A stretch of DNA of 64,000 nucleotides from Cyanobacteria bacterium FACHB-63 (GTDB lineage Bacteria; Cyanobacteriota; Cyanobacteriia; Leptolyngbyales; Leptolyngbyaceae): assembly GCA_014695255.1 (NCBI GenBank), contig JACJNX010000011.1:1-64000 (forward strand). The letters are read 5' to 3'. The position numbers and the translations under genes were made by a program. Numbering within the stretch: the first letter of the stretch is position 1; the number at the start of each line of letters is the position of its first letter. Positions 58,801-62,570 of this stretch are shown here, piece by piece. The notes under the pieces were generated by a model. It did no database searches. It saw nothing but the letters and a program-made list of their open reading frames with translations, and was not told where the DNA came from.

Positions 58801-60687
58801 ATGAAATCTTCTTGGAGAACCATCCTGCTTTGGGCAATTCCCGCGCTTGTCGTCGGGTTTTTCCTCTGGCAAGGATCAATCGCTCCAACCGCACCCAATA
58901 CCAGCAGAAACACTGCCAGCACCCGTATGACCTATGGGCGGTTCTTGGAGTATTTGGACGCAAATCGAATTAATAGCGTTGATTTATATGATGGAGGTCG
59001 AACGGCGATCGTAGAAGCGGTTGATCCAGATTTGGATAATCGGCTACAACGCTTAAGAGTCGATCTCCCCGGCAACACCCCTGAATTAGTGACCCGTCTC
59101 CGTAATTCTGGTGTCAACCTAGACTCCCATCCAATTCGCAACGATGGCGCAGTTTGGGGTTTACTCGGAAACTTAGTTTTCCCGATTCTCTTGCTGGGTG
59201 GACTCTTCTTCTTGTTCCGTCGATCGGGCAATGTCCCTGGCGGCCCCGGTCAAGCGATGAACTTCGGCAAGTCCCGCGCTCGCTTCCAAATGGAAGCCAA
59301 AACGGGTGTGATGTTCGATGATGTCGCAGGCATCGAAGAAGCCAAAGAAGAACTGCAAGAAGTCGTCACCTTCCTGAAAAAGCCAGAACGCTTTACCGCA
59401 GTCGGCGCGAGAATCCCCAAAGGCGTTCTGCTCGTCGGTCCTCCGGGCACGGGTAAAACCCTGCTTGCAAAAGCGATCGCAGGTGAAGCAGGCGTTCCCT
59501 TCTTCTCAATCTCCGGTTCCGAGTTCGTCGAAATGTTCGTCGGTGTGGGGGCATCCCGCGTCCGCGACCTGTTCAAAAAAGCGAAAGAAAACGCCCCTTG
59601 TATCATCTTTATCGATGAAATTGACGCAGTCGGACGGCAACGGGGAGCCGGAATCGGTGGCGGAAACGATGAACGCGAACAAACCCTAAACCAACTCCTC
59701 ACCGAGATGGACGGGTTTGAAGGCAACACTGGAATCATTATCATCGCGGCAACTAACCGCCCTGATGTCCTCGATTCCGCACTGCTTCGCCCCGGACGCT
59801 TCGATCGTCAAGTCAGTGTTGATGTCCCCGACATCAAAGGCCGTTTCGAAGTCCTCAACGTCCACGCCCGCAACAAAAAAATTGCCCCTGAAGTTTCCCT
59901 AGAAGCGATCGCTCGTCGTACCCCTGGTTTCTCTGGTGCAGACTTAGCAAACTTGCTGAACGAAGCGGCAATTCTCACCGCCCGCCGCCGCAAAGATGCC
60001 ATCACCATGCTTGAAATTGATGATGCAGTCGATCGCGTCGTGGCTGGTATGGAAGGCACCCCGCTCACCGACAGCAAGAGCAAGCGCTTGATTGCCTATC
60101 ACGAAATCGGACACGCGATCGTTGGAACACTGGTGAAAGAACATGATCCAGTTCAGAAGGTCACTCTTGTTCCACGCGGTCAAGCACGCGGTCTTACCTG
60201 GTTTATGCCGAGTGAAGATCAAGGACTGATTTCGCGCTCACAGATCCTCGCCCGTATCAAGGGTGCATTGGGCGGACGCGCAGCAGAAGAAGTCATCTTC
60301 GGAGATGCTGAAGTGACGACGGGTGCAGGCGGTGACATTCAACAAGTCACCGGCATGGCACGTCAGATGGTCACTCGCTTTGGAATGTCGGATTTAGGTC
60401 CGCTCTCCCTCGAAAGCCAACAAGGTGAAGTCTTCTTAGGTGGCGGTTGGATGACTCGCTCTGAGTATTCCGAAGAGATTGCAGCCCGGATTGATGCTCA
60501 AGTCCGCTCGATCGTCGAACACTGTTTAGACGACACTCGCCGCATCATTCGCGAAAACCGCGAAGTGATTGATCGTTTAGTCGATCTTCTAGTGGATAAG
60601 GAAACGATCGACGGCGACGAGTTCCGCCAAATCGTTGCAGAATACACCGCCGTTCCTGAAAAAGAACGCTATGTACCGCAACTGTAA
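58801..60687 (+). CDS. ftsH: ATP-dependent zinc metalloprotease FtsH
   Basis: A membrane AAA+ protease that degrades damaged membrane proteins; cyanobacterial paralogues remove photodamaged D1. The 628-residue protein has two membrane helices (about 8-25 and 120-140) around a lumenal or periplasmic domain. Walker A is GPPGTGKT (213-220) and Walker B is IIFIDEID (268-275). The second region of homology includes [19 protein letters not shown], and the zinc motif is HEIGH (434-438). The usual motif is HEAGH; the Ile variant keeps all ligands and catalytic Glu. A terminator follows. Confidence 0.97.
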
Positions 60688-60709
60688 TTCTGAAAGATAG
60701 ATAACTGCG

Positions 60710-60740
60710 ATCGGGGTGGTGAAAACTGCCCCGATTTTTT
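60710..60740 (+). terminator. Rho-independent terminator of ftsH
   Basis: ATCGGGG (60710-60716) pairs with CCCCGAT (60729-60735) around a 12-nt loop and is followed by a run of T residues. It lies 22 bp after the ftsH stop. Confidence 0.9.
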
Positions 60741-60803
60741 GTGAATTCAATTTGCTAAAGAGCAGAAGGGCAATCGCTGCCTCTAAATCTATATCATTTT
60801 TAT

Positions 60804-60848
60804 CACTTGAGACTCGAAATAAGTCTAATATCAAGACCAGAATGAGAA
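60804..60848. repeat. Dispersed 45-bp repeat with three half-sites at 12-bp spacing
   Basis: AGAC at 60810, AGTC at 60822 and AGAC at 60834 are exactly 12 bp apart. The element aligns without gaps to the reverse complement of 44364-44408 (31 of 45 identical). It shares TGAGACTCGAAAT with 50166-50178. Confidence 0.7.
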
Positions 60849-60991
60849 AGAGAATTCACATCAGTTGTAACTGTTGAGCTTACCCTGTGCCAACAGCTAG
60901 AGGATGTGATCGCACGATCGACCAGTGAGTGGATGAACGGGATCTTAGGCAGAATAGTACAAGCTTTCTTCGAGAAGAAATACGGAAATTT

Positions 60992-61225
60992 TCAGTCTAA
61001 TGCCTCTGTCGAGGGGTAATATACCGAATATGAGTCGGTCTAACGTTCCAAATCTCAGTATTAGACAGAAAGAGCCGGTCTAATGTCCTAATTTCGGATG
61101 TTACACCGACTTTGAGCAGCCTAAATCGCCCTGACAAAATGTTATACCGACCATTTTCGGTCTAATGTCCCCATCTAGGTGATTAGACCGAAAGAGTCAG
61201 TCTAAACAATTGTTAGGCAGAGTTG
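60992..61225. repeat. Degenerate tandem array of about 41-bp units (GTCTAA...TTAGACCGA)
   Basis: GTCTAA or GCCTAA recurs at 60995, 61038, 61078, 61119, 61160 and 61200, spacings of 43, 40, 41, 41 and 40 bp. Units have the form CGGTCTAATGTCC, then a variable stretch, then TTA-ACCGA and GAG, so each contains an inverted CGGTCTAA/TTAGACCG pair. Units differ at many positions, and there is no open frame across them. Confidence 0.8.
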
Positions 61226-61272
61226 CTGGATTTTGTGATTAGACAAGTGTTTTTTAGCTAAACATTCCAAGT

Positions 61273-61746
61273 ATGCAAATCCGAAAGCTTGCTCATCAAG
61301 AAATCGATATAGCCATTGAATTTATTCAAGCAATGCTCGATACAATGGCATCCCTTGGCGGTCATGCTTTACAAGATCCGCATTCTATTTCAAATTGGCT
61401 TCGAAAGCCTATCCAATCGCAGATTGATTCCCCTGATCATCTTTTTCTTATTGCAGAACTGGATATCTCATCCAATCAACTGATTGGCATTCTCGAAGCT
61501 AGTATCATTGAGCTAAGTTCCGTATTTCTGCCAAAATCATCTCTGCATATCCATGCAATTTATGTCGCTCCTCAGTATCGCCGATCTGGAGTTGCGAGAT
61601 CGCTTATGGAAGCAGCATTCAAATGGGGACGGGACAAAGGTTGCATGGAAGCTGATCTTAATGTTTTGCGAGATTCGCCAGCAAAATTGCTTTATGAAAG
61701 TTTGGGATTTGAAGACTTTCAGATCGAGATGCGACGAAAACTATAA
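61273..61746 (+). CDS. GNAT family N-acetyltransferase
   Basis: A 157-residue acyl-CoA-dependent acetyltransferase. Motif A is IHAIYVAPQYRRSGVARSLMEAAFKWGRDKG, with the Q/R-x-x-G-x-G/A pyrophosphate loop (QYRRSGVA). Motif B follows as ADLNVLRDSPAKLLYESLGFE. Acceptor is unknown. It lies between the tandem array and an attC-like site, so it may be an integron-type gene cassette; GNAT genes are frequent cassette cargo. Confidence 0.9.
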   Translation: MQIRKLAHQEIDIAIEFIQAMLDTMASLGGHALQDPHSISNWLRKPIQSQIDSPDHLFLIAELDISSNQLIGILEASIIELSSVFLPKSSLHIHAIYVAPQYRRSGVARSLMEAAFKWGRDKGCMEADLNVLRDSPAKLLYESLGFEDFQIEMRRKL

Positions 61747-61807
61747 AATTACTGGAAGTACAATAGCTTGAGATTCTCATTTAACCCTGTGGTCAGCACA
61801 AATTCCT

Positions 61808-61897
61808 GTCTAACAATCCGCTTGCACACCGACCATATGGAATATGTTGGTTGAGCCAGAAAGGTTACTGGTGGCGGGTGAAGCGGGAACGTTAGAT
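61808..61897. other. attC-like recombination site
   Basis: A 90-bp site framed by GTCTAAC (61808-61814, RYYYAAC consensus) and GTTAGAT (61891-61897, GTTRRRY consensus). These are near-complementary to each other. Inside them CCGCTT (61818-61823) pairs with AAGCGG (61881-61886), with matching CAC and GTG next to it. This R/L box order is the hallmark of integron cassette attC sites. It lies just after the GNAT gene. No integrase is in the window. Confidence 0.6.
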
Positions 61898-61940
61898 TGC
61901 TAAATTGCAACGATATGCAGAGTTACTGAAATGCAAGGGT

Positions 61941-62570
61941 ATGGCAAGAACAGTTAGCAAACGATCTCCAAGTTTCGTAGTGGCGATCAGTGGACCGTCT
62001 GGAGCAGGAAAAACTTCTCTGGTGCAGAAAGTCACCTGCTTGTTAGAGGATGCTGTCTCTTTCTACTTCGATGACTATGTCTGTGTATCAAAGTATCCTT
62101 TAGACTTCTCTCAATGGATTAGAGAGGGGGCTGATCCTAATCAGTGGGAAACCCCACAACTCCTCGAAGATTTGCAAGCATTACGGCATGGAAAGTCCAT
62201 TTCTTTGCCCGAGAATCAAGGAATAATTAAATCAGCTAGCTTCATTGTGATGGAGGAGCCGTTTGGTAGAGAACGCGCCCAGATGAGCGAACTAATTGAT
62301 TTTGTAGCGTGTATCAACCTTCCGCTAGAAGTTGCCTTGGCACGTCGATTGCTGCGAGACATTGAACAGTGTGTCACTGAGAAAAAGCAAGATATCCTGG
62401 CAGACTATCTCAAAGAATATCTGACAGAATATCTCAATGGTGGCACCCGAGAACTGTATTTTGAGGTAAGTACAAGAGTTTTGCAGAATTGTGATTTAAT
62501 TCTAAATGGGGTCAACTCTTTAGATGAATTAGCGAATGAGATAGTGACTGCGATCAAAACAAGGAGGTAG
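61941..62570 (+). CDS. Uridine-kinase-like P-loop NTPase
   Basis: A 209-residue P-loop protein with Walker A ISGPSGAGKTSLV. FYFDDYVC follows (the acidic pair typical of uridine/pantothenate-kinase-like folds), then FIVMEEPFGRERAQM (Walker B-like) and LARRLLRDIEQC (lid Arg region). It would phosphorylate a small metabolite, but the substrate is not predictable. The ATG at 61941 is chosen over an in-frame TTG at 61905, which lies in attC-flanking DNA. It lies between two attC-like sites. Confidence 0.8.
   Translation: MARTVSKRSPSFVVAISGPSGAGKTSLVQKVTCLLEDAVSFYFDDYVCVSKYPLDFSQWIREGADPNQWETPQLLEDLQALRHGKSISLPENQGIIKSASFIVMEEPFGRERAQMSELIDFVACINLPLEVALARRLLRDIEQCVTEKKQDILADYLKEYLTEYLNGGTRELYFEVSTRVLQNCDLILNGVNSLDELANEIVTAIKTRR

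Follow-up and report, generated by a model that had tools for sequence, protein, structure and literature searches.

What is the function of a short non-coding stretch, lying between the end of an ftsH-like ORF (60687) and a GNAT ORF (61273), that carries one hexamer again and again at nearly constant spacing? The stretch belongs to the window, the 64,000-nt piece of cyanobacterial DNA that was analysed. The original prediction placed six GTCTAA-type cores, 40-43 bp apart, at 60992-61225 and took them for an old repeat array kept for its structure, either a protein-binding array or a chain of small hairpins, with collapsed attC remnants as a further reading. The six cores and their spacing were confirmed, and they go far beyond what shuffled sequence or the rest of the window gives. 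With a chain defined as GTCTAA (one mismatch tolerated) at 39-44 bp spacing, no chain longer than 3 arose when 60992-61225 was dinucleotide-shuffled 10,000 times (24 shuffles reached 3), and elsewhere in the window 2106 tiles of 234 bp, taken on both strands, gave chains of at most 2. Lag-limited self-alignment, which served as the proposed self-comparison, was clearly periodic (z 18.7; the self-alignment z values come from 20-30 shuffles and are rough, as L121 and L122, the same stretch, gave 11.1 and 4.5). The proposed run of a tandem-repeat finder was unproductive, as the window array was absent from the output of Tandem Repeats Finder at a minimum score of 30. The units are diverged in sequence. 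An Rfam scan of the window at the gathering threshold returned tRNA only.

The array is built from two kinds of box, F and R. F boxes start at 60992, 61035, 61075, 61116, 61157 and 61197, in steps of 43, 40, 41, 41 and 40. R boxes follow the first five of them, starting at 61019, 61061, 61101, 61142 and 61183, and the sixth F box (61197) is followed by 6 nt and then GTTAGGC. The features are as follows.

60930-61212, + strand: predicted attI region, solo copy without intI, the block shared with other copies (BLAST matches; edges from copy comparison)
60945-60953, - strand: lone R box TTAGGCAGA preceding the array (box model score 12.7)
60992-61027: unit 1, F box 60992-61000 and R box 61019-61027 (box model)
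61035-61069: unit 2, F box 61035-61043 and R box 61061-61069 (box model)
61075-61109: unit 3, F box 61075-61083 and R box 61101-61109 (box model)
61116-61150: unit 4, F box 61116-61124 and R box 61142-61150 (box model)
61157-61191: unit 5, F box 61157-61165 and R box 61183-61191 (box model)
61197-61221, + strand: predicted insertion core, with L box (F) 61197-61205, spacer 61206-61211, crossover G^TT 61212/61213 and cassette-side R box 61213-61221 (box model; end of likeness in other copies)

We compared the array with its copies elsewhere. With 60900-61300 as query, BLAST found 8 matches in its own genome, dispersed copies of ~288 bp, and a search of the genus gave 40 matches in seven of eight genomes. 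Of 23 copies compared with that of the window, 18 reach the right end. Likeness ends at window 61214-61218 in 15 of these 18, just past the G^TT at 61212-61214; the remaining three are alike up to 61220, 61221 and 61225. Beyond the insertion point most copies carry unique sequence. The solo arrays L024 (G007) and L027 (G004), from two genomes, have a similar first cassette to the right of it. The block common to the other copies runs from ~60930 to ~61214. The predicted limits thus held for the core array; on the left the block is wider, starting at ~60930 and taking in an extra R box, and on the right the bases from 61213 count as cassette. By the usual integron convention, bases 3' of the crossover belong to the inserted cassette. 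Copies L020 and L030 are without whole stretches of units. Two pairs of copies lie on the same strand ~4-5 kb apart (G001:C1 5241463/5245482 and G004:C32 205213/209793) and look as if they were duplicated platforms.

The integron integrase gene intI was then located relative to the copies. TIGR02249 was above cut-off in six of the eight genomes of the genus, in G002 only as two pieces, and the intI of G005 was flagged with one stop; G004 has no IntI above cut-off, yet it has 5 array matches. By tblastn, L017, L019 and L020 have a full IntI on the left side of the array and L009 has a remnant there; the remnants suspected at L011 and L016 on visual inspection were not recovered in that search. 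Each of the five stop-free, full-length intI genes of the genus (G001, G003, G006 twice, G007) has the array immediately upstream, in divergent orientation. Upstream of the intI genes of G005 and G002 there are also arrays, with other box types; the intI fragments L048 and L052 have no array alongside. Most intI genes of the order also have an array upstream. Because the array lies directly upstream of intI in relatives and its copies end at G^TT, it is, judged from sequence, the attI region of a cyanobacterial integron. An L box and an R box with a G^TT insertion point are present at 61197-61221, and the position next to intI, on the cassette side, is seen in relatives; the window locus itself has no intI.

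The copy in the window is best described, from its gene content, as a solo attI, because no intI stands beside the array and a GNAT cassette and an attC-like site remain:

61213-61891, + strand: predicted inserted gene cassette (limits from the two G^TT points)
61273-61746, + strand: GNAT acetyltransferase gene of the cassette (PF00583, E 4.2e-16)
61808-61897, + strand: attC-like cassette site (GTCTAACA ... CGTTAGAT) (custom scan; folding)

No trace of IntI was found at 60681-60960, between ftsH and the array, and the locus has no functional intI such as a complete integron carries. The draft genome (7.2 Mb, 179 contigs, completeness 99.98%) gave no IntI above cut-off, its best match scoring 30.6 bits vs. 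the cut-off of 265. The bottom strand of the attC-like site at 61808-61897 had a folding z of -4.06. This site came from a crude scan, which also flagged a site within the GNAT gene. The scan yields a false site roughly every 3.4 kb, with 0-1 sites on each strand of four 3.4-kb control stretches. A stricter scan was applied downstream of 51 intI-linked attI regions and 19 genus copies. It gave 25 attC candidates downstream of 18 of the 51 (shuffles: 0) and 8 candidates downstream of 7 of the 19 (shuffles: 1). The resemblance of the cores to the R box of the attC-like sites had been noted correctly; array and attC are both parts of an integron. No second attC was found by the scan downstream at the window locus. 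An ORF at 61905-62570, right after the attC, is kinase-like, with a weak phosphoribulokinase/uridine kinase match, and may be a second cassette. Elsewhere in the window, 1879-1935 holds a 28-bp tandem repeat in two perfect copies. The window locus shares with a CALIN (cluster of attC lacking integrase) a cassette and attC without an integrase; it differs, by the description in the accessible part of PMC9668308, in that it retains attI, and one attC was found.

The genome was also searched with a pattern of one unit plus the next F box. This gave 13 matches in the 7.2 Mb, and the reversed control gave 0. Twelve of the 13 fall in six known copies, and the thirteenth led to a new solo array on another contig:

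G000:C129, ~118.3-118.6 kb: second predicted attI box lineage (TCTGCCTAA / TTATACAGA type), solo, L206 (pattern match)

This array, of another box type, has six F boxes and ends in a core-like site; its self-alignment z was 14.9. No IntI was found in the 3.5 kb examined near it. The genome-wide search that had been proposed thus yielded a further array, and arrays are present both elsewhere in the genome and in relatives.

The box model was iterated over 53 attI regions, that of the window included. In these regions an F box (TCNGYMTAA), 17 nt, an R box (TTAKRCNGA) and 5-6 nt are repeated up to 7 times, and the array ends with a final F box, ~6 nt and G^TT. The model found 197 units, 3.7 per region vs. 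0.55 in mononucleotide shuffles, having been trained on the same 53 regions in which the units were counted and with a mild preference for a 17-nt spacer. The spacer is 16-18 nt in 183 of the 197 units. Among 145 neighbouring units, the linker is 5-6 nt in 110, despite a finder penalty on 5, and the period is 39-43 in 121. The first unit is weak in several arrays, and box type varies between integrons, even inside one genome. A GTAC-type palindrome (e.g., GTATTAAATAGTAC), defined by a loose pattern, is present between intI and the array in 12 of the 53 regions (L062, L065, L066, L070, L080, L082, L088, L094 and others) and is possibly a LexA-type operator of intI. Downstream of the attI, attC-like sites recur every ~306-308 bp, three in L063 and four in L090, which suggests a tandem run of short similar cassettes.

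Periodicity was examined across the order by self-alignment at lags of 36-47 bp in 44 regions upstream of intI, a set that omitted L040, L095 and L096 (repeats) and L046 and L084 (no upstream DNA) and counted both L069 and L092, which carry an identical array. An intermediate step omitted L116, L119 and L122. Forty of the 44 regions reached z of at least 4; those below were the short fragments L048 and L052, the decayed L098 and L072, which is cut by a contig end (z 3.9). Of the 44 IntI coding controls, 2 had z above 3.

IntI was above cut-off in 29 of 42 genomes of the order and in 22 of 386 genomes drawn from the phylum. Outside the family, an array is present in ten genomes of other cyanobacterial families (L100-L104, L106, L114, L117, L120, L121; z 4.0-18.4). 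No recognisable array was found upstream of intI in L099, L111, L113, L115 and L118, nor in the loci of family f19 (L105, L107, L108, L110, L112), of which L105 gave z 3.9 without boxes; those f19 loci included in the IntI tree group with Synechococcus sp. 1G10. L109 was not counted, because the alignment piece that placed its upstream region was poor (29% identity). From a scan of named genomes the best 80 of more than 594 IntI stretches were taken, 73 of them usable with at least 200 bp upstream. In this best-80 set 6 of the 73 had z above 6; they were three of the four cyanobacteria and three of the six Chloroflexota, and the 63 loci from other groups reached z 4.4 at most. Plasmid pB of Kovacikia minuta CCNUW1 (Leptolyngbyaceae) is a named carrier (z 17.1). 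By eye, L181 and L200 (Chloroflexota) have boxes like CCGTCTAA and TTAGGCGGA at similar spacing, and the third Chloroflexota locus, L203, is shorter; elevated z without boxes was seen in L205 (4.4) and L155 (3.8). On an IntI tree of 124 rows, from which repeats, rows with stops and partial proteins were excluded, the 42 array rows need 5 changes vs. 35.3 for shuffled labels (labels from the periodicity z values; L100-L123 by eye and box model). Thirty-eight array rows fall in one 44-row clade and 4 in a second, 5-row clade.

We compared these regions with known integron sites. The attI1 of class 1 integrons shares a core L box, ~6 nt and G^TT, as well as upstream accessory IntI sites. As described in the accessible part of PMC3518468, IntI1 binds L, R, DR1 and DR2, four domains of attI1, and recombination with attC is at its best only when the site is complete. 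With the box model, the attI1 L box (TCGCCCTAA) scored 7.4 and an R-like box, TTACGCAGC, 7 nt before it and by its position taken as DR1, scored 5.8; an R-like box at the place assigned to DR2 scored 4.7. Stray matches in the same stretch reached 5.4, so that only the L box stands out. There is no 41-bp periodicity in attI1 (z 2.5), which shows at most the final part of the array pattern. The attI1 site differs, on the published descriptions accessible, in being ~65 bp long with two accessory sites in direct repeat, whereas here up to 7 inverted-pair units span 150-300 bp. The window site is accordingly not of the class 1 type; it has five inverted-pair units and a lone R box over ~270 bp. The attIA of the Vibrio cholerae superintegron is likewise an integron insertion site adjoining intI, and, set apart by description and not by sequence, it is without such repeats in the accessible part of PMC8946536. 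Some attI sites have accessory binding domains (PMC4792948, accessible part), and attI2 is undefined in what is accessible of PMC12901181. The ends of the array boxes resemble the R box of attC sites (RYYYAAC / GTTRRRY, in the descriptions accessible). The attC candidates here differ from the units, as they are ~86-90 bp long and lie downstream, whereas a unit measures ~35 bp, keeps its spacer of ~17 nt fixed and shows no covariation between its arms. In the literature searched, with preprints and most subscription journals outside its scope, no description of a cyanobacterial attI or of a long attI box array was recognised.

We consider it probable that the array is an expanded form of the attI of a cyanobacterial chromosomal integron, with the boxes as putative IntI sites on double-stranded DNA. 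IntI would be the likeliest binder of the boxes. The core L box resembles the boxes of its own array over those of other arrays (45 loci, z 4.09, p 0.0004). It is unlikely, though a real alternative, that the attI place is right and another protein, a repressor of the intI or cassette promoter, binds there, which would make the array an operator. The array does occupy the stretch that separates intI from the first cassette, which would be expected to hold both promoters, and we infer the identity of the binder. However, the array's final F box is at the same time the core L box, which matches the boxes of its own array best, and the differences in box type among integrons, even in one genome, suit an integron-encoded binder. 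Shuffling across arrays (180 units) gave z 6.85, meaning that the boxes are specific to the array and not to the unit; such specificity could also stem from unit duplication inside an array, without a link to IntI.

Could the units act in single-stranded form, each as a minimal attC-like hairpin and together as a chain on one strand? Every unit does read as an imperfect palindrome whose inner part is CC..GG, and for either strand of the window array, taken singly, the predicted folding surpassed that of each of 200 shuffles (z -4.25 and -5.71). The predicted folds, however, also join boxes of different units, so that in the structure prediction on both strands the folding beyond shuffles stood and the confinement of pairing to single units did not. 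Arm pairing was examined in 180 units of 48 arrays, after exclusion of the near-copies L092, L123, L114 and L082 and of units with scores below 4. Within arrays, arms matched their own unit no better than other units (177 units, 45 arrays; z 0.68, p 0.26), and for the inner arms the within-unit match was below expectation (z -2.33). A bottom-strand hairpin with arms pairing inside the site, as in attC, is thus not seen in the units, which show no excess of within-unit complementarity, and the spacer length is nearly fixed. Double-stranded protein sites are favoured over hairpins because arms match their own unit no better than other units, and we rate a hairpin chain, which the within-array test does not support, as improbable. 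The near-fixed spacer and 41-bp step suit proteins on a single duplex face.

Conservation was compared between boxes and other columns, with the partial copies L012 and L013 excluded. In 17 aligned genus copies the values were 0.852 for boxes vs. 0.704 for other columns (p 1e-6), and in 14 copies classed as solo they were 0.841 vs. 0.697 (p 2e-6); common descent could explain part of this excess. Of the structural readings first offered, the protein-binding array has therefore gained support from box conservation above that of the spacers, rigid spacing and the array-specific box type, and the chain of small hairpins has lost ground, its partner arms being unmatched within units although the strands outfold shuffles. 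The conservation also bears on the reading of the array as a decayed, functionless relic, whether of collapsed attC sites or of a passive tandem repeat. The absence of IntI above cut-off from the genome and the divergence of the window units would suit a relic; we nevertheless think it very improbable, since arrays adjoin intact intI in many families, boxes outdo spacers even in the 14 solo copies (descent explaining part) and attC-like sites are found separately, downstream. Collapsed attC remnants were rejected on position and grammar, the array occupying the attI place next to intact intI in relatives. A MITE-like small mobile element standing beside integrons by chance, to which the dispersed ~288-bp copies in one genome might point, was rejected and is given practically no weight, as the right end is the insertion core, all 13 pattern matches lie in arrays otherwise found or in the C129 array that ends core-like, and the place upstream of intI is kept across families.

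Under the preferred reading, an expanded attI with putative IntI sites, IntI protomers would sit on double-stranded DNA at the 9-bp inverted boxes. Within a unit, the F box and the R box are turned towards one another like the two boxes of the core, at 17 bp vs. ~6, which, as we read these numbers, would set the unit boxes one helical turn further apart than the core boxes. A unit could then dock an IntI pair without supporting strand exchange. The ~41-bp repeat would equal four turns and so place the IntI pairs on one duplex face. Cooperative assembly of IntI could load or orient IntI at the terminal core, which would be the entry point for incoming attC hairpins. A wider model is offered tentatively, as one that may well prove wrong: in cyanobacterial and some Chloroflexota integrons the polymeric attI would carry an IntI array on up to 7 helically phased pair sites that loads or gates the core and perhaps represses intI, with box specificity set by IntI lineage. 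Each array with its IntI would then be a separable cassette-capture system, blind to the others even when they are neighbours within a genome.

How an integrase recognizes and processes attI is described as little known in the accessible part of PMC4792948. The attI described here far exceeds in size that of the integrons through which antibiotic resistance spreads. Its sequence signature finds attI regions without intI, such as the array on C129. There are now dozens of attI regions with 1-7 regular pairs, in several box types, each beside its own IntI, and with them it becomes testable what accessory sites do, which recognition code IntI follows and how the attI complex is arranged in space.
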